NCBI GenBank assembly: GCA_035609245.1
Contig: CP141202.1
Span: forward strand, 1,612,001-1,676,000
Reading direction: 5' to 3'
From: Bacteroidales bacterium MB20-C3-3
Lineage (GTDB): Bacteria; Bacteroidota; Bacteroidia; Bacteroidales; UBA932
Length of the DNA: 64,000 nt
Shown here: positions 13,946 to 23,150 of the stretch, one piece after another
Position numbering within the stretch: the stretch's first letter is position 1
How the letters are laid out: every line of letters starts with the position of its first letter
Notes under the pieces: generated by a model
What the model saw: the letters and a program-made list of their open reading frames with translations, nothing else
The model's database searches: none
What the model was told of the DNA's origin: nothing
Translations under genes and position numbers: made by a program

Positions 13946-14512
13946 ATGGAAGTTCATTTTCCCAAAAAACTTGTTCTCCCACTTATCATCCTTCTGGGTG
14001 CAGTAATTGGTGTATTTTTCTATCTCCTCTATGTTGCCAGGATGCCATCCTATCTCTCTGACGACCCGTCGGCCTGCGTAAACTGTCATATAATGGCTCC
14101 GTACTATCAGAGTTGGCAAAAGAGTTCTCACCAGGCCTGGACAACCTGCAACGAGTGTCATGTTCCTCAGGACAACTTTGTCAGGGGTTATGCATTTAAA
14201 GCAAAGGACGGACTATATCACGCTGCAGTTTTTACAGCGAGAATGGAGCCTCAGGTGATAAGACCTCGCGACGAGAGTTATGGCGTAATAATGGAGAACT
14301 GTATAAGATGCCATACTCAGCTTAATCAGGAGTTTGTAAATACAGGTATGCTAAGTTATGCCGATACTCAGAAGGGTATGGGAAAGGCTTGCTGGGACTG
14401 TCACCGGGAGGTTCCTCACGGACGCATATCAAACCTTGCAATGAGTCCAAATGCAATTGTTCCTCTTCCTGAATCTCCTGTTCCTCAATGGTTAAAAGAC
14501 ATAATGAAATAA
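13946..14512 (+). CDS. nrfH: Cytochrome c nitrite reductase small subunit NrfH
   Basis: A 188-residue NapC/NirT-type membrane cytochrome. One N-terminal transmembrane helix (about residues 9-30) anchors a periplasmic domain with four haem motifs: CVNCH (44-48), CNECH (68-72), CIRCH and CWDCH. It takes electrons from menaquinol and passes them to NrfA. nrfA follows after ten bases, the usual operon order in ammonifying Bacteroidota. Confidence 0.96.
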   Translation: MEVHFPKKLVLPLIILLGAVIGVFFYLLYVARMPSYLSDDPSACVNCHIMAPYYQSWQKSSHQAWTTCNECHVPQDNFVRGYAFKAKDGLYHAAVFTARMEPQVIRPRDESYGVIMENCIRCHTQLNQEFVNTGMLSYADTQKGMGKACWDCHREVPHGRISNLAMSPNAIVPLPESPVPQWLKDIMK

Positions 14513-14522
14513 AGCCTATAAT

Positions 14523-16004
14523 ATGAAATTCTATGAAAAACACAAAGGAATCCTGTTGTGGATCCTTTTCGGAGGTACGATAGTAGTCGTATTTCTGCTT
14601 GGTTTGCTGGCTGCCTCTGTAAATGAGAGGAGGGCAGAGATTGCAACCCTTTTTGCTAATAAGAGAGTTGAGATTACAGGTATTGAGTCCAGAAGTTCAA
14701 TCTGGGGAGAGAACTATCCTAGGGAGTACGAAACCTGGAAAAAAACAGCCGATTCTACTTTTGAGAGCAAACATCATGGTAATCATTTTCAGGATGTTCT
14801 GGAAGAGAGACCTGAGATGGTTGTGCTGTGGGCCGGTTATGCTTTTTCAATGGATTATTCAGCACCCAGAGGGCACTCAAACGCAATAAAGGATATTCAT
14901 AATACCCTGAGAACAGGTTCTCCAATGACAGCTGATGAGGGCCCTCAGCCGGCTACCTGCTGGAGCTGTAAAAGTCCTGATGTGCCAAGAATGATGGCAG
15001 AAGTGGGCATTGAGGAGTTTTACAAGAACAAGTGGGCCGCTTATGGACACGAGGTTGTAAATCCTATTGGATGTGCAGATTGTCATAACCCTCAGAATAT
15101 GAATATCAATATCTCCCGTCCTGCTCTTGCTGAGGCATTTGAAAGACAGGGGAAAGATATATCAAAGTCAACAATACAGGATCTTCGCTCTCTCGCTTGC
15201 GCTCAATGTCATGTTGAGTATTATTTCAAGGGAGATGGCAAATATCTTACATTCCCCTGGGATAAAGGTATGACAGTTGAGGCAATGGAGGAGTATTATG
15301 ATGAATATGGATTCACGGACTGGACTCATAAACTCAGCAAAGCTCCTATGCTTAAAGCTCAGCACCCGGATTACGAATTATTCCAGCTGGGACCACACGC
15401 TCAGAGGGGACTCTCTTGTGCAGACTGCCATATGCCATACAAGACAGATGGAGCGATAAAGTATAGTGACCACCAGCTTGTATCGCCTCTTATGAATATT
15501 GATCGTACATGCCAGAGCTGTCACAGAGACAGTAAGGAGAATCTGATGAAGTATGTGTATGAATATCAGGACAAGGCACTGGAAATACGAAACAGGGTTG
15601 AGGCAGAGCTTTCAAAAGCTCATATTGGAGCTAAATATGCATGGGATAATGGTGCAAACGAGAAGCAGATGGAGCCGGTGCTTAAACTTCTAAGATCTGC
15701 ACAATGGAGGTGGGATTTTGCTGTAGCATCACACGGAGCATCCTTCCATGCACCTGTTGAAACACAGAGAATCCTTGCACACTCTCTTGATAAGAGCTAT
15801 CAGGCTCAGCTAGAGATACAAAAGGTGCTTTCGGCTATTGGTGTAAAAGGAGAGTTCCCTATGCCGGACATCTCAACCAAGGCAAAAGCACAGGAGTATA
15901 TCGGCCTTGATATGAAGACACTCCACGCAAATAAAGATAAATTCAAATCTGAAATTATTCCTCAATGGGTAGCCAAAGCAAAGGAAAACAAGAGACTTCT
16001 CTAG
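14523..16004 (+). CDS. nrfA: Ammonia-forming cytochrome c nitrite reductase NrfA
   Basis: A 493-residue pentahaem enzyme reducing nitrite to ammonium in the periplasm. An N-terminal signal/anchor helix spans about residues 10-32. The catalytic haem motif with lysine ligand, CWSCK, is at 146-150, and four CxxCH motifs are at 184-188, 226-230, 299-303 and 330-334. This is the standard NrfA set, with Lys rather than His at the active site. NrfA enzymes can also reduce sulfite in vitro, of possible interest beside the DsrC operon 3.7 kb downstream. Confidence 0.97.
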   Translation: MKFYEKHKGILLWILFGGTIVVVFLLGLLAASVNERRAEIATLFANKRVEITGIESRSSIWGENYPREYETWKKTADSTFESKHHGNHFQDVLEERPEMVVLWAGYAFSMDYSAPRGHSNAIKDIHNTLRTGSPMTADEGPQPATCWSCKSPDVPRMMAEVGIEEFYKNKWAAYGHEVVNPIGCADCHNPQNMNINISRPALAEAFERQGKDISKSTIQDLRSLACAQCHVEYYFKGDGKYLTFPWDKGMTVEAMEEYYDEYGFTDWTHKLSKAPMLKAQHPDYELFQLGPHAQRGLSCADCHMPYKTDGAIKYSDHQLVSPLMNIDRTCQSCHRDSKENLMKYVYEYQDKALEIRNRVEAELSKAHIGAKYAWDNGANEKQMEPVLKLLRSAQWRWDFAVASHGASFHAPVETQRILAHSLDKSYQAQLEIQKVLSAIGVKGEFPMPDISTKAKAQEYIGLDMKTLHANKDKFKSEIIPQWVAKAKENKRLL

Positions 16005-17095
16005 TTGAAATAATTATAATATCTGCCGTGACAATTGCAGGGTTCGCCCTGCAATTTGTCATTGGTCCCCTTGATTTTGGGATTCTCTCTTTTCCTGTAA
16101 ATCTTGTATTGGGAATATTACTTCTTCTGCTGATACCTTTTAAGTTTCCCAAACCAATTCGAAAGTTTGGCTCGGGAAAGGTATCTGTTATCCTCCTGGT
16201 CCTGGTTACTTTAATGGCTATCTATATGGGTCTGGTACCGGGGAATGATGTTAAGCACTCGTGGCCGTTTGCATTAGTATACCTGATGTGTATGATAAAT
16301 CTTGCTCTTGCCATTGGTAAAAGAGTAAGGAGATTCAGTATTAAAAAGGATTATGGTTTTATGCTAAACCACGTGGGGTTGCTTTTATTTCTTTTTGCCG
16401 CAGGGCCGGGTTCAGGAGATATGCAGCGGTGGTTTATGACAGTTGCCGAGGGTAGTACTGAGTGGAGAGGAGAGAGAGGTGGAGTTAAGGAGCCTGTTGA
16501 GCTACCGGTTGCAATAACTCTGCTTGATTTTAGTATGTCTGAATATCCACCTAAGATAGCTATTGTTGATAAAACAACAGGGGAATCTCAGCCGGTTAAA
16601 AGAGCTGTTTTTGTTGAGGCTGTGGAGGGCGAATCAGGGATAATTTCAGGATGGAGGATTAATATTGACACGTTTAAGTATCCTCCTATGATGGCTCCTG
16701 TTGCTTCAATTACTGCAGAGAGAGTCTCTGATGGCAGGGTACTTAAAGGAAAAGTAAGTTGCGGTAACCATTTTCAGCAATTTATCATACTTGATATAGA
16801 TGAGAGATACTGTTTTGCAATGACCTATCCTGAACCTGAAAAATTCTCTTCTCAGGTAGAGGTTTTTACAAAGGATGGAAAGGAGAAAAGTGGTGTTATA
16901 GAGGTTAATAATCCCCTTTCAATTGGTGGATGGAATATATACCAATACTCTTATGATACCGGTAAAGGGAGAGATTCAAATATTTCAATTTTTGAACTGG
17001 TATACGATCCCTGGCTCATAGCCTCCTATATTGGTATTGCTATGGTTATGCTGGGTTCTGTTACCCTTTTATTCAAGGGAGGAAAAAGAGAATGA
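15965..17095 (+). CDS. ResB-like cytochrome c biogenesis protein
   Basis: A 376-residue membrane protein. Four N-terminal hydrophobic segments are followed by a large extracytoplasmic domain and a C-terminal helix (YDPWLIASYIGIAMVMLGSV), a layout matching the ResB/CcsB half of system II haem lyase as found next to nrfHA in Bacteroides relatives. The ATG overlaps the end of nrfA by 40 bases. The conserved PLSIGGWNIYQYSYD segment before the last helix is typical. It should work with the CcsA-like protein encoded next to attach haem to NrfH and NrfA. Confidence 0.85.
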   Translation: MGSQSKGKQETSLVEIIIISAVTIAGFALQFVIGPLDFGILSFPVNLVLGILLLLLIPFKFPKPIRKFGSGKVSVILLVLVTLMAIYMGLVPGNDVKHSWPFALVYLMCMINLALAIGKRVRRFSIKKDYGFMLNHVGLLLFLFAAGPGSGDMQRWFMTVAEGSTEWRGERGGVKEPVELPVAITLLDFSMSEYPPKIAIVDKTTGESQPVKRAVFVEAVEGESGIISGWRINIDTFKYPPMMAPVASITAERVSDGRVLKGKVSCGNHFQQFIILDIDERYCFAMTYPEPEKFSSQVEVFTKDGKEKSGVIEVNNPLSIGGWNIYQYSYDTGKGRDSNISIFELVYDPWLIASYIGIAMVMLGSVTLLFKGGKRE

Positions 17096-17865
17096 GCTGG
17101 AATGAATTTATATATTTTGCGATAGGTTCTCTTGTTCTATGGACATTGGGGACAGTTGCTATTTACAGATTTAAGAGAAGCTTGTACGGAGAGCTTCTGA
17201 TTGTTGGCGGTCTTGTGCTTTTTTCACTCTTTATTGCCCTCTTATGGAACTATGTTAATCATCCTCCTTTAAGAACAATGGGAGAAACCAGATTGTGGTA
17301 TTCACTCTTCCTTGTTCTTGTTGGCTATGTTACATATAAGAGGTGGCATTACAAGTGGCTTATGGCATACAGCGTATTTGTTTCAGCTGTTTTTATTTTT
17401 GTAAATCTCTTAAAACCTGAAATACACGGAACAAATCTGATGCCTGCTCTTCAGAGTCTCTGGTTTGTACCCCATGTGACTGTGTATATTCTCTCCTATG
17501 CAATGATGGGTGCTGCTACAATCGCATCAATAATAACCTTGAGTTCCGGAAGTAAAAGGGAGAAAGAGTTGCTCCCATTAATAGATAATCTTGTTTATAT
17601 AGGCTTTGGCTTTCTTGTGCTTGGTATGCTTATGGGAGCTGTCTGGGCAAAGGAGGCATGGGGTGACTACTGGACCTGGGATCCTAAAGAGGTTTGGGCA
17701 TTCATAACAGCATCGGCCTATCTGGTCTACATGCACGCACATTATGCAAAAATATCCAGAAGAGATGCCCTCTGGATACTTCCTGTTGCTTTTATTCTGC
17801 TTATGATAACCTGGCTTGGTGTAAGCTATCTCCCTGCAGCACAGGGGAGTATTCATACTTATTAA
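17092..17865 (+). CDS. ccsA: Cytochrome c biogenesis protein CcsA (haem lyase)
   Basis: A 257-residue polytopic membrane protein with about eight helices and the tryptophan-rich WWD haem-handling motif WGDYWTWDPKEVWAF at about residues 190-204. Conserved His residues flank it, one in FVPHVTVYI and one in the late MHAHYAK loop. The start overlaps the ResB-like gene by four bases (ATGA), so the two system II components are coupled. A G/C hairpin lies right after the stop. Confidence 0.92.
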   Translation: MSWNEFIYFAIGSLVLWTLGTVAIYRFKRSLYGELLIVGGLVLFSLFIALLWNYVNHPPLRTMGETRLWYSLFLVLVGYVTYKRWHYKWLMAYSVFVSAVFIFVNLLKPEIHGTNLMPALQSLWFVPHVTVYILSYAMMGAATIASIITLSSGSKREKELLPLIDNLVYIGFGFLVLGMLMGAVWAKEAWGDYWTWDPKEVWAFITASAYLVYMHAHYAKISRRDALWILPVAFILLMITWLGVSYLPAAQGSIHTY

Positions 17866-17902: not shown

Positions 17903-19564
17903 TTAAAATAACCCGGTTATATTGCCGTCATTATCAATATCGATGCGAATAGATGACGGCTCTTCAGGAAGTCCCGGCATTCTCATTATTTCACCTGTGA
18001 TAGGTACAAGAAAGCCAGCTCCTGCCGCAATCTCTATCTCTCTAACAGTGACAACAAAGTCTTTAGGCCTTCCTAGTAGCTCAGGGTTGTCAGAGAGTGA
18101 TTTCTGAGTCTTTGCCATACATATAGCAAGATCATTGAGTCCCAGCCTGTCAATCTTTGCTAGGTTTGCTTTTGCTTTTGCAGTATAGTCAACAGCCTCT
18201 GCCCCGTATATCTTTTTGGCAATAGTCTCAATTTTTTTCTCTACGCTCTCTTTTAAAGGATATAGTGGAAGGAAGTTAGGGCAGCAATCTTCGGCAGCAT
18301 CAACTACCATTTTTGCAAGCTCCTCTGCTCCGGCACCACCTTTTGCCCAAACATCAATAATTGAAACAGGGATTTTTCTTTCTATACAGTAATTCTTGAT
18401 AAAATCAAGCTCCTCCTGGGTGTCTGTGACAAATCTGTTGATTGCTACAACCGGTGCCAGGCTGAATAACTTTATGTTTTCAACGTGTTTTTGTAGATTC
18501 TCAATCCCTTTTGCCAAAGCAGCTACATCAGGATCTTTAATCTCCTTAAGAGGTTTCCCTCCGTGATATTTAAGAGCCCTTACTGTTGCAACCAAAACAG
18601 CAGCATTTGGAGATAACTTTGCAGAGCGGCATTTTATATCCAGGAACTTCTCTGCACCAAGGTCAAACCCAAAGCCAGCCTCCGTTACAGTGTAGTCAGT
18701 AAGAGACATAGCAGTTTGAGTTGCAATCACAGAATTTGTACCCTGAGCGATGTTTGCAAAAGGTCCTCCGTGAATTATCGCAGGAGTGCCCTCTATTGTC
18801 TGTACAAGATTTGGTTTAATTGCATCTTTAAGAAGTGCTGCCATTGCTCCGTTTGCCTTAAGATCTCTTGCATAAACAGGCTTTTTGTCAAAAGTGAAGC
18901 CAATAAAGATATTGCCAAGCCTCTCTTTCAGATCCTCCCTGTCTTTTGCAAGACAAAGTATAGCCATTACTTCAGATGCCGCTGTGATATCAAACCCGGT
19001 CTCTCTTGGAATTCCATTTCCGGTTCCCCCCAATCCAACAACTATATCTCTCAAAGCTCTGTCATTCATGTCCATAACCCTTTTCCATGATATAGTTCTT
19101 GGGTCAAGGTTAAGGTTATTGTTTTTACTTTGAATATTGTTGTCAATAAGAGCAGAGAGAAGATTGTGAGCCTTCTCAATAGCGGCAAAGTCTCCGGTAA
19201 AGTGGAGATTAATATCTTCCATAGGAAGTACCTGAGAGTATCCTCCTCCTGTTGCTCCCCCTTTTATACCAAACACAGGGCCAAGAGAGGGCTCTCGTAA
19301 TACAACAGTAGATTTTTTACCAATCCTGTTCAGCGCTTGGGAGAGGCCTATTGAAACAGTTGTCTTACCCTCTCCTGCCGGAGTGGGAGAGATGGCGGAT
19401 ACAAGAATCAGTTTGCCGAATTTGTTCCTGTCAATATATTTTAAAGGCAATTTTGCCTTATACTTGCCATAAAGCTCTAGGTCATCGGCATCTATTCCAA
19501 GCTTGGCAGCTATTTCTCCAATAGGTTTTAACTTGATTGTGCGTGCAACTTCCTGATCAGTCAT
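17903..19564 (-). CDS. fhs: Formate-tetrahydrofolate ligase
   Basis: A 553-residue enzyme making 10-formyl-THF from formate, ATP and THF. The nucleotide-binding motif TPAGEGKTTVSIGL is near residue 60, and conserved blocks LREPSLGPVFGIKGGA and INLHFTGDFAAI follow; the C-terminal FLVPITGEIMRMPGLP is intact. Full length for the family and single-domain, unlike eukaryotic C1-THF synthase. It diverges from the DsrC operon; both have recognisable promoter elements in the 139-bp gap. Confidence 0.97.
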   Translation of the reverse strand: MTDQEVARTIKLKPIGEIAAKLGIDADDLELYGKYKAKLPLKYIDRNKFGKLILVSAISPTPAGEGKTTVSIGLSQALNRIGKKSTVVLREPSLGPVFGIKGGATGGGYSQVLPMEDINLHFTGDFAAIEKAHNLLSALIDNNIQSKNNNLNLDPRTISWKRVMDMNDRALRDIVVGLGGTGNGIPRETGFDITAASEVMAILCLAKDREDLKERLGNIFIGFTFDKKPVYARDLKANGAMAALLKDAIKPNLVQTIEGTPAIIHGGPFANIAQGTNSVIATQTAMSLTDYTVTEAGFGFDLGAEKFLDIKCRSAKLSPNAAVLVATVRALKYHGGKPLKEIKDPDVAALAKGIENLQKHVENIKLFSLAPVVAINRFVTDTQEELDFIKNYCIERKIPVSIIDVWAKGGAGAEELAKMVVDAAEDCCPNFLPLYPLKESVEKKIETIAKKIYGAEAVDYTAKAKANLAKIDRLGLNDLAICMAKTQKSLSDNPELLGRPKDFVVTVREIEIAAGAGFLVPITGEIMRMPGLPEEPSSIRIDIDNDGNITGLF

Positions 19565-19608
19565 AATTGTAAATATTTGTAATTAAATACATAAGTTTTA
19601 TATACTAA

Positions 19609-19639
19609 CAAATATAATTTATTAAAGTTTCCTTTCAAA
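19609..19639 (-). promoter_or_regulatory. Promoter of fhs
   Basis: On the minus strand a TTTG (complement of CAAA at 19636-19639) and TATATTTG (complement of 19609-19616) are spaced 23 bp start to start, exactly the Bacteroidota -33/-7 geometry. The box lies about 44 bp before the fhs ATG. Confidence 0.6.
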
Positions 19640-19651
19640 ACGATATTTTTT

Positions 19652-19659
19652 TATCTTCG
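19652..19659 (+). promoter_or_regulatory. Candidate -7 box TATCTTCG for the DsrC operon
   Basis: TATCTTCG differs from TAnnTTTG at one base and sits 44 bp before the dsrC-like ATG. The same variant occurs at 62701-62708 behind a well-placed TTTG, which supports its use. No perfect -33 element is seen here. Confidence 0.4.
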
Positions 19660-19703
19660 TGAACGAAGCCTTTTTTAATAGTTTATAAACAAGAAATAGA
19701 AAT

Positions 19704-20021
19704 ATGGCAACACTGGAAATTGAAGGAAAAGTTTTTGAAGTAGATGGAGATGGATTCCTCTCGGATCCATCTGTATGGAACGAACAGGTAGCAACTCTTT
19801 TTGCTAAATCTGACGGGATAGATAATTTAAACGAAAAGCATTGGGCAGTGGTTAATATTATCAGAAGGAATTTTGAGGAGAAGGGAAATGCTCCAATGAT
19901 AAGGACTATTTGTCAGGAGACTGGTCTTAAACTTCGTGAAATCTACGAACTTTTTCCTTTGGGACCAGCCAGAGGGGCCTGCAGAATTGCCGGTTTACCC
20001 AAGCCGGATGGGTGTGTTTAA
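19704..20021 (+). CDS. DsrC family sulfur-carrier protein (two arm cysteines)
   Basis: A 105-residue cytoplasmic protein of the DsrC/TusE family. The C-terminal arm has Cys93 (RGACRIAG) and the penultimate Cys104 (PKPDGCV), 11 positions apart, the same spacing as the redox pair of true DsrC; TusE has only the last one. Family blocks DGDGFL, WNEQVA and HWAVVNIIRR are present. DsrC normally carries sulfite-derived sulfur as a trisulfide from DsrAB to DsrMK. Here DsrAB is absent from the window but DsrMK-like genes follow within 12 bp. A third Cys (70) is extra. Confidence 0.92.
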   Translation: MATLEIEGKVFEVDGDGFLSDPSVWNEQVATLFAKSDGIDNLNEKHWAVVNIIRRNFEEKGNAPMIRTICQETGLKLREIYELFPLGPARGACRIAGLPKPDGCV

Positions 20022-20033
20022 CATCTGTATAAT

Positions 20034-20672
20034 ATGGATGTTTACAAACTAGTCTCGCTTATAGCAATTGCTATATGTATAGCAATGTTGCTTTTTCAGC
20101 TCTTAAGATTGATTTCAGCAGGAAATCCTGTTGATTACTCTAAACCATCCGGAAGTATAAGGGATGGGGTGATTTATTCTTTTACCTCGGCTATGTCTCC
20201 TTTTGAAAAGGAGTCGGCCTTTATGCATTTGCCAACATATGTTGCGGGTATAATTTTCCACATTGGGACATTCCTCTCATTTCCTGTTTTATTGACACTT
20301 ATCATTTATCCTAAAGTATTTATTGAAAGTGCCCTGCTCTCCCCTTTGGGTGGTGTGGTTTTTTCTGCAGGTGCAATTTGCGGCTTAGCGATATTGATAA
20401 AGAGGATTGTAAAAAAAGAGTTAAGATCAATCTCGGGTGCTGACGACTATATTTCCAATGCTGTGACTACAGTAGCACAGGCACTCTCAGCTTTTGTTCT
20501 GTTAACAGGAGGCGGTTATCCATTGTATTATATAGCATTTTCTATCTTCCTGATTTGGATACCAATAGGGAAGACCAGACATCTGCTATATTTTTTCTAT
20601 GCCAGATATCATTTAGGTGCATTTTATGGAAGAAGAGGGACTTGGCCTGTAAATCGGAATATCAATGAATAA
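20034..20672 (+). CDS. DsrM/NarI-like membrane cytochrome b
   Basis: A 212-residue membrane protein with about five hydrophobic segments. Candidate haem b ligands are His65 and His76 in FMHLPTYVAGIIFHIGTF and His183 and His193 near the C-terminus (GKTRHLLYFFYARYHLG). The FxxRxxLGAFYGRRG-like ending and the DDYISN loop resemble NarI/DsrM. It would pass electrons between menaquinol and the Fe-S partner encoded next, with which it overlaps by eight bases. It is shorter than typical DsrM, closer to NarI length. Confidence 0.8.
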   Translation: MDVYKLVSLIAIAICIAMLLFQLLRLISAGNPVDYSKPSGSIRDGVIYSFTSAMSPFEKESAFMHLPTYVAGIIFHIGTFLSFPVLLTLIIYPKVFIESALLSPLGGVVFSAGAICGLAILIKRIVKKELRSISGADDYISNAVTTVAQALSAFVLLTGGGYPLYYIAFSIFLIWIPIGKTRHLLYFFYARYHLGAFYGRRGTWPVNRNINE

Positions 20673-21942
20673 GAAACCTGAGTTTAAACAAGTAGACAAC
20701 AAACTTTTAACACACCTCAACGCTTGTGTGAAATGTGGTCTTTGTGCGGAGAGTTGTATGTTTTACAAAACATTTAAAGAGCCGGAATATATTCCTGCAT
20801 CAAAAGTTGCATTGGTAAGTTCTGTTTACAGAAGGTACAATACACTATCTGGAAGGCTTATCCCCGGACTTGTGGGAGCAGAGGAGATGACTGATAAAAT
20901 GGCAGAGAGAATGGTTGACCTGCTTTTTGGTGCCTGTACTATGTGCGGGAGATGTGTAAAGCATTGTTCTGTAGGTGTAGATATAGCTTATGTTGTGAGA
21001 AAGGGCAGAGAGATGCTCGCAGAAATGGGCCTTGTTCCCGAGACTTTACAATCAACTGTTGATGCTGCTGTGCAGACCGGTAACAATATGGGTATTCCGG
21101 AGGATGAGTTTATTGGTACAATAGAGTGGATGGAGGATGAGTTAAAAGATGAACTTAATGATCAGAGTGCAAGTATCCCATTAAACCAGAGCAACAAAAG
21201 AGTTCTCTATACTCTAAATCCGAGGGAACCAAAGTTTTTCCCGCTCTCTATCTCGGCAATGGCCAAAATTTTCTATGCTGCAGGAGAGAGCTGGACACTC
21301 TCTTCCAAGTATTATGATGTTACTAATTATGGGTTCTTTAGCGGGAACAGGAAAGAGGCAAAAACAATAGCTGTTAATTTGCATGATGAGGTTATTAAAC
21401 TTGATTCGTCTCTTTTGGTTCTGGGGGAGTGTGGGCACGGCTCACGGGCAAACAGATGGGAGGCTCCCAACTATATTGGTAAAGAGTATGAGTTTGATAT
21501 GACGACAGCCGTAGAGTTAATTGGCAACTATATCAGAGACGGGAGAATAAAACTTGATCCTTCATTTAATTCAGAGGTTGTAACTATTCATGACCCCTGT
21601 AATTTAGTAAGAAACGGAGGTCTTCTGAATGAAATTAGATTTGTTGTTAATTCATCGGCTACAAATGTTATAGAGATGACACCAGGCGGAAACGACAACT
21701 TTTGTTGCGGAGGTGGTGGAGGCTTACTTGCAATGAGTGAGTATAATGAAAGAAGGATTAAAGCTGGTGAAATTAAGGCAGAACAAATAAGAAAAACAGG
21801 GGCTAAAGTAGTCGTTACCCCATGTCATAACTGTGTGGATCAACTCACACAAATAAATCACACCTATAAGCTTGGTGTTAAAATTAAGACCATTGCTGAA
21901 TTGGTTGCTGATGCTCTACTATTAGAAAATAACCTTAAATAG
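20665..21942 (+). CDS. DsrK/HdrD-like iron-sulfur protein
   Basis: A 425-residue cytoplasmic protein. Two [4Fe-4S] motifs lie at Cys21/24/27/31 (CVKCGLCAESC) and Cys91/94/97/101 (CTMCGRCVKHC). The C-terminal half has a degenerate first CCG domain (LGECGHGSRANRW) and an intact second one: HDPCNLVRNGG, NFCCGGGGG, TPCHNC. That second CCG domain binds the non-cubane cluster for disulfide reduction in HdrB/HdrD and is the proposed DsrC-reducing site in DsrK. With the cytochrome b subunit it forms a minimal DsrMK-like quinone:disulfide module. Confidence 0.88.
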   Translation: MNKKPEFKQVDNKLLTHLNACVKCGLCAESCMFYKTFKEPEYIPASKVALVSSVYRRYNTLSGRLIPGLVGAEEMTDKMAERMVDLLFGACTMCGRCVKHCSVGVDIAYVVRKGREMLAEMGLVPETLQSTVDAAVQTGNNMGIPEDEFIGTIEWMEDELKDELNDQSASIPLNQSNKRVLYTLNPREPKFFPLSISAMAKIFYAAGESWTLSSKYYDVTNYGFFSGNRKEAKTIAVNLHDEVIKLDSSLLVLGECGHGSRANRWEAPNYIGKEYEFDMTTAVELIGNYIRDGRIKLDPSFNSEVVTIHDPCNLVRNGGLLNEIRFVVNSSATNVIEMTPGGNDNFCCGGGGGLLAMSEYNERRIKAGEIKAEQIRKTGAKVVVTPCHNCVDQLTQINHTYKLGVKIKTIAELVADALLLENNLK

Positions 21943-21950
21943 AATAAACA

Positions 21951-23114
21951 ATGAGTAAACTGATTTATCTGGACAACTCAGCTACCAGCTATCCTAAGCC
22001 GGAGGCTGTTTATGACTTCATGAACACTTTTTACAGGACAAAAGGTGTTAGTCCCGGCCGCTCCGGATTTGATGCAGCCCTTGAAACAGAGGAGGTTGTG
22101 AACAATACCAGGAAAATGTTAACCCGTCTTTTTAACGGAGGGGCTGATCACAACAGACTTACATTTAGTTATAACGCTACTGATTCTCTTAATTTAATCA
22201 TTAACGGACTTGTTGAAAAGGGAGACCATGTTGTTACAACAATGCTGGAGCATAATTCTGTGCTAAGACCTTTATATTATCATACTGAAAAAGGAACCAT
22301 CGAAACCACTCATGTCCCTTTTGATAATGAGGGGTATGTTAATCCAAAGGATATTGAAAATGCTATAAAACAGAATACAAAATTCGTAATTGTAACGCAT
22401 TGCTCAAATGTACTTGGAACAATTCAGCCGCTAAAAGAGATTGGAGAGATTTGCAAGAAAAAAGGTATTCTCTTTGTCGTAGATGGAAGTCAGGGAGCCG
22501 GAGCTGTTGAGTTTGACATGCAGGATTGTAATGTTGATGTATACTGTTTCACCGGTCATAAATGTTTGATGGGACCTACCGGAATAGGCGGTTCATATGT
22601 CAGGGAGGGTATAGAGATAAAACACACCAGAGCGGGTGGTACAGGAGTAAGATCTGCTCACCTGTCTCATCTTGATGAGTATCCCTACAGGCTGGAGTAT
22701 GGAACCCTAAATTTACTGGGTGTAGGGGGACTCTATGCCGGAGTTAAGTGGATTACAGAGCAAGGAATATCAAGGATACATGAAAGAGAGATGGATTTGT
22801 GGGATATGCTTGTAAGTGAGATGAAAAAGACAAAGGGTGTTCTTACATATTGTGCTAACGGAAGAGAAAATAAAAATCCCGTAGTATCTTTTAATATAAA
22901 TGGATTTGAAGCATCAGATGTTGGGACTATGCTGGATGTGGACTATAATATTGCGGTAAGGACCGGGCTTCAGTGTGCTCCTTTTGTCCATAAACAAATA
23001 GGTACATTTGATATTCACGGAACAGTAAGAATGAGTATTGGTGCTTTTACCACCGAAGAGGAGGTCAAGGCAGCAATTACTGCAATAAAAGAGATAGCTT
23101 CAATAAAGAACTAA
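21951..23114 (+). CDS. Group II cysteine desulfurase-family protein
   Basis: A 387-residue class V PLP enzyme starting LIYLDNSATSYPKPEAV. The PLP lysine is in FTGHKCLMGPTGIGG, the cofactor Asp/Gln in VVDGSQGAG, and the catalytic cysteine in RTGLQCAPFVH, close to the RTG-x-x-C of SufS/CsdA-type enzymes. It would take sulfur from cysteine as a persulfide. No SufE, SufU or scaffold gene is adjacent; it follows the DsrK-like gene by 8 bp, so DsrC is its most likely local acceptor (inference). Confidence 0.88.
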   Translation: MSKLIYLDNSATSYPKPEAVYDFMNTFYRTKGVSPGRSGFDAALETEEVVNNTRKMLTRLFNGGADHNRLTFSYNATDSLNLIINGLVEKGDHVVTTMLEHNSVLRPLYYHTEKGTIETTHVPFDNEGYVNPKDIENAIKQNTKFVIVTHCSNVLGTIQPLKEIGEICKKKGILFVVDGSQGAGAVEFDMQDCNVDVYCFTGHKCLMGPTGIGGSYVREGIEIKHTRAGGTGVRSAHLSHLDEYPYRLEYGTLNLLGVGGLYAGVKWITEQGISRIHEREMDLWDMLVSEMKKTKGVLTYCANGRENKNPVVSFNINGFEASDVGTMLDVDYNIAVRTGLQCAPFVHKQIGTFDIHGTVRMSIGAFTTEEEVKAAITAIKEIASIKN

Positions 23115-23115
23115 T

Positions 23116-23150
23116 AATTTAGGCGTTTAGTTTTAAGCGCCTAAATTTTA
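23116..23150 (+). terminator. Terminator of the DsrC operon
   Basis: AATTTAGGCG (23116-23125) pairs perfectly with CGCCTAAATT (23138-23147), loop 12 bases, followed by TTTTA. It lies directly after the desulfurase stop and closes the four-gene operon. Confidence 0.8.

Follow-up and report, generated by a model that had tools for sequence, protein, structure and literature searches.

In sulfate reducers the trisulfide of DsrC is reduced by the DsrMKJOP complex and sulfide is released (PMC10504309), and the Tmc and Hmc complexes are postulated partners of DsrC as well (PMC6470260). Allochromatium vinosum DsrC gains sulfur in the presence of Escherichia coli IscS and cysteine, or of sulfide, and the gain is lost upon mutation of the penultimate cysteine (PMC3397948). 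According to the same 2012 source, the second, upstream cysteine of DsrC is found only where DsrAB is present, with exceptions in Methylococcaceae, Marinobacter and Lawsonia. DsrMK genes without DsrAB have been noted before, in 7 of 74 assemblies of one clade (PMC10504309). Here we analysed a 64,000-nucleotide stretch of Bacteroidales bacterium MB20-C3-3 (the window; contig CP141202.1, positions 1,612,001 to 1,676,000), which carries a cassette of four genes encoding a two-cysteine DsrC, a membrane cytochrome b, an Fe-S protein with a CCG domain and a cysteine desulfurase (CSD). That DsrC, the membrane redox module and the CSD form a functional unit is well supported, and that this unit is fed by cysteine is moderately supported. 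We give about an even chance (roughly 50%) to the reading, drawn from sequence comparison, that the cassette moves the sulfur of L-cysteine to sulfide with menaquinol. The four genes are as follows.

19704..20021, plus strand: dsrC, encoding DsrC of 105 aa with the tail GACRIAGLPKPDGCV (PF04358, TIGR03342).
20034..20672, plus strand: NarI-fold membrane cytochrome b of 212 aa, probably diheme (His65, His76, His183, His193), from an AlphaFold2 model and conserved histidines.
20665..21942, plus strand: Fe-S protein of the TmcB/HmcF/DsrK family, 425 aa, with two [4Fe-4S] motifs and one intact CCG domain (C312, C347-C348, C387, C390).
21951..23114, plus strand: CSD of the EF2568/TIGR01977 family, 387 aa, class V aminotransferase fold, group II-like (SufS-like), with Cys342 in RTGLQCAP.

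The open reading frames (ORFs) are spaced by 12, -8 and 8 bp, and an earlier note on this DNA had placed all of them correctly. The genome is a single contig of 2,379,874 bases, 97.24% complete. A search for PF01077, the siroheme reductase domain, gave no match in this genome (non-siroheme sulfite reductases were not searched for) and none in the 24 genomes of its family that have a DsrC match. The same search found matches in 8 of 28 genomes sampled across the phylum, demonstrating that it works in this phylum. DsrAB is therefore absent from the window genome and from the 24 family genomes, so that the statement of the earlier note that no DsrAB is seen holds for the whole genome and for these family genomes. 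Membership in a dissimilatory sulfite reduction pathway is ruled out for these genomes on the same grounds.

DsrC matches were found in 24 of 199 genomes of the family; among these 24, G186 has no DsrC but the single-cysteine paralogue, and the match in G145 is a fragment. The order DsrC, cytochrome b, Fe-S protein, CSD was kept in all 12 family loci read, which come from three genera. The flanks of the cassette, named by eye, vary: in the genus of the window they are mostly FTHFS, his and UDP-glucose dehydrogenase genes, and in the two other genera RecQ, phosphoenolpyruvate carboxykinase and other genes. Public genomes were scanned with the alignment of the Fe-S protein, and the best 80 of 250 relatives were taken. 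All four genes, in identical order and strand, were present at 54 of these 80 loci, with a gap between the Fe-S and CSD genes of -100 to 265 bp (2,252 bp in L119). The four-gene order, for which the earlier note had suggested a search, thus recurs in both samples, beyond what chance would give. A lone Fe-S gene stood at 21 of the 80 loci; the genomes concerned carry DsrC elsewhere in 18 cases and a CSD orthologue elsewhere in 19 (490-746 bits), and at 7 of 8 loci read in such genomes DsrC adjoins the cytochrome, the eighth stopping at a contig edge. A use of the lone Fe-S gene independent of DsrC was considered and rejected, given the DsrC genes elsewhere; the remaining three genomes may be incomplete. 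Among the best 80 of 250, carriers include Bacteroidales bacterium CF, Butyricimonas synergistica DSM 23225 and Butyricimonas sp. Marseille-P3923, and many are metagenome-assembled genomes, for example from rumen, horse faeces and groundwater. One full cassette (L129) lies in a genome labelled Ignavibacteriae bacterium, which may reflect lateral transfer or a mislabelled bin.

To follow the genes across the order, profiles of DsrC, the Fe-S protein and the CSD were searched against 393 Bacteroidales genomes. The score distributions were two-humped, with a gap between 166 and 84 bits for DsrC and between 600 and 391 bits for the CSD; the Fe-S count takes all 44 matches at E <= 1e-80, and the CSD count includes a 199-residue piece at a contig edge in G736. 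Cassette-type DsrC was found in 45 genomes, the Fe-S protein in 44 and the CSD in 45. DsrC was present in all 44 genomes with the Fe-S protein, DsrC and CSD were shared by 44 genomes, and 43 had all three (Fisher p < 1e-53 for each gene pair, with no correction for kinship); the earlier note had held that genes rarely found together would speak against its reading, and these three are commonly found together. In 33 of the 43 genomes all three lie within 6 kb; in the other 10 they are on different contigs or far apart, some of them maybe through contig breaks. The DsrC and Fe-S genes of G805 are 275 kb apart on one contig, and in G663 DsrC directly adjoins the CSD. Genomes with cassette DsrC span 24 families, and within genera the three genes are gained or lost jointly: in genus g198 they are present in G711 and G886 and missing from G595, in g260 present in G759 and G915 and missing from G657 and G850, and in g308 present in G705 and missing from G802. 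In another 77 genomes of the order, where the only DsrC is a low-scoring one, both the Fe-S protein and the CSD are missing. Together, the absence of PF01077, the conserved order and the near-perfect co-occurrence point to a dedicated unit that works without DsrAB. The interpretation of the earlier note is thereby supported in part: the unit of DsrC, membrane redox module and desulfurase without DsrAB is upheld, and the naming of the membrane part as DsrMK-like is not.

The window genome has a single DsrC match by profile search, scoring 118 bits with PF04358 (cut-off 24.9) and 99 bits with TIGR03342 (cut-off 53.5). Both arm cysteines that had been predicted for it, Cys93 and the penultimate Cys104, are invariant in all 13 rows of the family alignment at a spacing of 11 residues. 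The arm follows the pattern GAC..AGLPKP.GCV, and the solved proteins 2v4j_C and 2xsj_C end GACKMAGLPKPTGCV. The 111 matches of cassette type comprise 77 distinct sequences, every one with both arm cysteines. Of 41 other distinct DsrCs, nine carry both cysteines, all from dsr-type genomes of families f19 and f34, and the remaining 32 carry the penultimate one only. A tree was computed from 121 rows and 105 columns, with long branches flagged; in it the 77 cassette DsrCs form one clade (100/99) on the two-cysteine side, which includes Desulfovibrio vulgaris, and a 98/95 branch sets the 32 single-cysteine rows apart. The tree, which the earlier note had proposed, thus groups cassette DsrC with two-cysteine DsrC, apart from the single-cysteine paralogues of Bacteroidota. 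Owing to the 105 columns and the long branches, the branching order among the two-cysteine lineages, including the sister of the cassette clade, is poorly resolved. As far as tested, the rule that ties two-cysteine DsrC to DsrAB has in the cassette clade an additional exception, larger than those named before, and another sulfur donor is a possible reason for it.

The idea that all DsrCs of Bacteroidota are alike was rejected, as the phylum commonly has a single-cysteine paralogue, accompanied by a DsrE-like protein and an SQR-like flavoprotein. This paralogue lies between the two partners at L049:7535-9679, likewise in L044-L051 and in many of L163-L180. The L049 flavoprotein passes NF049943 (type III SQR, selenoprotein subtype), and L045 adds QmoC/HdrA-like genes; the module is perhaps an oxidative sulfide route.

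Four histidines are conserved in the cytochrome b, which belongs to no Pfam family and matches HmcE (35 bits) and TmcC (27 bits) weakly, far below their cut-offs; its AlphaFold2 model (mean pLDDT 86) has NarI as best structural match. The earlier note had called it NarI/DsrM-like, and while the NarI fold is supported by the model, the likeness to DsrM is not, HmcE and TmcC being the nearest profiles. In the Fe-S protein, 14 cysteines are invariant in all 87 distinct rows, in keeping with the two four-cysteine [4Fe-4S] motifs and the intact CCG domain ascribed to it before; a fold search found an HdrB-like fold. DsrK, to which the earlier note had likened it along with HdrD, came third by profile score (234 bits), behind TmcB (290) and HmcF (285) and ahead of LdhH (61) and GlcF (20). 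The cut-offs of TmcB (735), HmcF (750) and DsrK (400) are all missed. Two DsrK-like proteins used as yardsticks also score under 400 (285 in L161, 304 in L162) yet rank DsrK first, with TmcB at 166 bits for L162, whose genome G555 has two PF01077 genes next to its DsrC. The DsrK of G555 thus scores the opposite way to the cassette protein, and we replace the label DsrMK by a TmcBC/HmcFE-like or HdrDE-like two-subunit module on the strength of the profile scores.

Assignment of the Fe-S protein to the lactate/glycolate oxidase subunits, which the earlier note had named as a possible refutation, was rejected by profile score, no tree with named DsrK, TmcB and HmcF having been built. A sequence search of the PDB gave no match for the cytochrome profile and one, EtfD, for the Fe-S profile. 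No DsrMK or HdrD chain was among the matches of the fold searches, a result that excludes nothing. Beside the cassette, an ORF with at least three CXXCH motifs was found in none of the 12 family and 80 public loci; the only such ORFs in the window are nrfH and nrfA, of nitrite reduction. Both yardstick loci, L161 (G567) and L162 (G555), hold a dsr-type DsrC with DsrM/DsrK-like genes; the two PF01077 genes of G555 are adjacent, and G567, a 98%-complete genome, has none.

The CSD passes TIGR01977 with 429 bits (cut-off 377), and Cys342, Lys204 (the pyridoxal phosphate lysine) and His101 are present in all 68 rows of its alignment. It scores higher with the SufS profile (256 bits) than with IscS (168 bits), which fits group II, the class assigned to it by the earlier note, which also placed the cysteine in RTGLQCAP. 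The genome has a further desulfurase gene elsewhere, SufS-like, and a SufE-like ORF comes after it (L181; names by eye). Since the cassette array has no SufE and the SufS-like gene has a SufE-like neighbour of its own, DsrC is the natural candidate acceptor of the CSD.

These data suggest the following scheme. The CSD would strip sulfur from cysteine, yielding alanine and a persulfide on Cys342. DsrC, in the place of SufE, would accept the sulfur on the penultimate Cys104. Attack of Cys93 on this persulfide would release sulfide and leave Cys93 and Cys104 joined in a disulfide or, where more sulfur had been loaded, in a trisulfide. The CCG Fe-S protein, anchored at the membrane by the cytochrome b, would then reduce the DsrC disulfide with electrons of menaquinol (MQH2), for a net reaction Cys + MQH2 -> Ala + H2S + MQ. 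We infer all four steps for these proteins, along with sulfide as the product, menaquinol as the donor and the direction, from the sequences. With formation energies of about -340 kJ/mol for cysteine, -371 kJ/mol for alanine and -28 kJ/mol for aqueous H2S, the cysteine/alanine + H2S couple has a rough E0' of about -0.1 V, which makes the reaction feasible with menaquinol at low sulfide. Whether cysteine is thereby the terminal acceptor of a respiratory chain, through the CSD, the two-cysteine DsrC and an HdrDE-like two-subunit membrane reductase, is a more tentative proposal, which we hold somewhat doubtful; if true, it would give these anaerobes a way to H2S that has gone unrecognised. For Acetomicrobium in digesters, growth "using cysteine as electron acceptor" has been put forward (PMC10579422, PMC11201294), in passages that name no such gene set. 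In line with the earlier note, no described pathway with this gene set came to light: the open-access literature, covered partly by titles and the starts of abstracts and with key subscription papers outside its scope, gave no description of the four genes together, nothing uniting DsrC, cysteine desulfurase, DsrK and Bacteroidetes, and nothing uniting DsrC and Butyricimonas.

Several observations weigh against this scheme. The order-wide profiles span DsrC, the Fe-S protein and the CSD, without the cytochrome. Five of the 80 public loci have DsrC, cytochrome and Fe-S genes with no CSD nearby; in the order-wide set G663 lacks the Fe-S protein, G901 lacks the CSD and G962 has the CSD only, perhaps through assembly gaps. 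Five genomes (G665, G688, G766, G856 and G915) have the CSD gene on the other strand, and G890 has it upstream of dsrC. The fourth histidine is absent from 11 of 76 cytochromes. EtfD and LutA fit the fold of the Fe-S protein better than HdrB does, and CCG proteins serve other reactions too. A couple at about -0.1 V is close to menaquinone and leaves little energy at standard conditions. Other sulfur donors may also feed cassette DsrC, since the L134 cassette has genes for TusA and DsrE-like proteins next to it. The neighbours at this locus (L134:3018-13237) comprise NifX-like and DrsE_2 proteins, TusA, FlpD, a second class V aminotransferase and a flavoprotein of 930 aa that combines an HdrA-like with a GltD-like part; in L143:2198-8440 the cassette is found with a single-cysteine DsrC, an aminotransferase of similar kind and a DrsE_2 protein. 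Finally, the correlation between Butyricimonas and H2S in hens was negative (PMC6813079).

Four other explanations were weighed. The one that survives best, though we regard it as unlikely, is a biosynthetic relay, in which DsrC loaded by the CSD would serve tRNA thiolation, a thio-cofactor or the sulfuration of a molybdo-enzyme, as in the E. coli IscS-Tus-MnmA route, and the membrane module would just keep DsrC reduced. The CSD falls in the EF2568 family, which we take to be sited in a selenium-dependent hydroxylase region, a point in favour of such a relay. TusE is, moreover, homologous to DsrC and receives its sulfur from IscS by way of TusA and TusBCD (PMC3397948). It is, however, the single-cysteine homologues that have been read as TusE-like carriers (PMC8190135), whereas the second cysteine is kept throughout the cassette type. 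The Fe-S protein is missing from G663 alone among the 45 genomes with cassette DsrC, and among clusters of neighbours recurring in at least 4 of the 80 loci no tRNA-thiolation or cofactor gene was recognised by eye. Presence in just 45 of 393 genomes also argues that the cassette is not housekeeping.

The module might instead run in the oxidative direction, oxidising thiol or sulfide at the membrane to make a DsrC persulfide or trisulfide, with electrons going to menaquinone and the sulfur being passed on, and with the CSD as acceptor or side supply. For cable bacteria it has been proposed that DsrC trisulfide is made and quinone is reduced with DsrMKJ (PMC13293266), and the DsrE-like, TusA and HdrA-like genes beside the L134 cassette would suit such a role. 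We nevertheless consider this direction improbable: the window genome and the 24 family genomes have no PF01077 enzyme to oxidise the product, and many source records are rumen or faecal, that is, anaerobic places. Desulfurases are, besides, practically one-way toward alanine and persulfide.

Thiol-disulfide homeostasis, in which the membrane module would reduce a disulfide of DsrC as a thioredoxin-like carrier and sulfur transfer would be secondary, suits the HdrDE-like architecture of a CCG Fe-S protein with a NarI-fold cytochrome b, but leaves unexplained the CSD orthologue in 44 of the 45 DsrC genomes, and we think it more improbable still. A selenium variant, with the CSD as selenocysteine lyase and release of selenide, is hardly credible, as SclA, the second-best NCBIfam profile of the CSD (313 bits), misses its cut-off of 525 whereas TIGR01977 is passed (429 vs 377).

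Around the cassette the window shows the following features.

23116..23147, plus strand: terminator-like hairpin of 14 pairs (4 G-C), with one base between the CSD stop and the stem.
19565..19703, no strand assigned: divergent intergenic region between FTHFS and dsrC, 139 bp by ORF coordinates, a probable promoter region.
17903-19564, minus strand: FTHFS gene, divergent, upstream of dsrC.

The region has 4 terminator-like patterns where shuffled sequence gives 3.5; the position and stem length of this hairpin fit a terminator. Promoter matches in a scan of the region were no more frequent than in shuffles. The nrfA gene (14523-16004), correctly placed 3.7 kb upstream by the earlier note, belongs to an nrfH-nrfA-ResB-CcsB array (13946-17865) of nitrite ammonification and cytochrome c maturation genes, in which the ResB-type ORF and the end of nrfA overlap by 40 bp. 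As a conserved partner of the cassette nrfA was rejected, no nrfA-like ORF being labelled in 12 related stretches of 8-16 kb (an nrfA farther away is possible); among these stretches CcsB-ResB occurs in that of Bacteroidales bacterium CF alone, at the stretch end and some 7 kb from the cassette. A small protein, roughly 80 aa long and with five cysteines conserved (CPN...C...C...C...CPDFVLPD), is encoded at 17 loci (L086, 4726-4968; L126; L204-L206; 12 others), each time directly upstream of cassette dsrC; it was not found in the window. It has no match in Pfam (two members scanned) or NCBIfam (one member) and is a candidate fifth component.

Two-cysteine DsrC of the cassette type, tied to the CSD and the Fe-S protein, is present in about one in nine of the Bacteroidales genomes searched. 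If the scheme is true, DsrC would carry persulfide sulfur to a membrane reductase as a general function, beyond sulfite reduction; H2S formation from cysteine could count among the respiratory steps of anaerobes; and Butyricimonas and other gut genera would have a sulfide source missed by surveys of desulfhydrases, dsrAB and asr. With Butyricimonas synergistica DSM 23225 there is a named type strain in which a role of DsrC outside sulfur respirers can be tested.

Compared with known systems, the cassette shares with DsrC-DsrMK(JOP) the two-cysteine DsrC arm and a partner made of a cytochrome b and a CCG Fe-S protein with two [4Fe-4S] motifs; it differs in that the cassette genomes tested lack DsrAB, the array has no JOP genes and a CSD stands as would-be donor, and both membrane subunits are closer to TmcB/HmcF and HmcE/TmcC than to DsrMK. 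TmcABCD and HmcABCDEF provide the closest profiles for both subunits, but the Fe-S protein scores far under the equivalog cut-offs, no multiheme cytochrome is adjacent, and the cassette has its own DsrC and CSD. The architecture is also that of the HdrDE of methanogens, in which a membrane cytochrome b and a CCG protein cleave a disulfide with electrons of a membrane carrier; here, by contrast, a protein, DsrC, would serve as substrate, and a single intact CCG motif is present in the Fe-S protein. In the IscS-TusA-TusBCD-TusE-MnmA relay, as in the cassette scheme, desulfurase sulfur ends on the penultimate cysteine of a DsrC/TusE-family protein (PMC3397948), whereas the four-gene array has no Tus genes, keeps the second cysteine and includes a membrane redox module. 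Finally, like SufS with SufE, the CSD is of group II type and expected to need a persulfide acceptor; unlike in that pair, no SufE is encoded in its array, and the SufS-like gene with its SufE-like neighbour is sited elsewhere in the genome.

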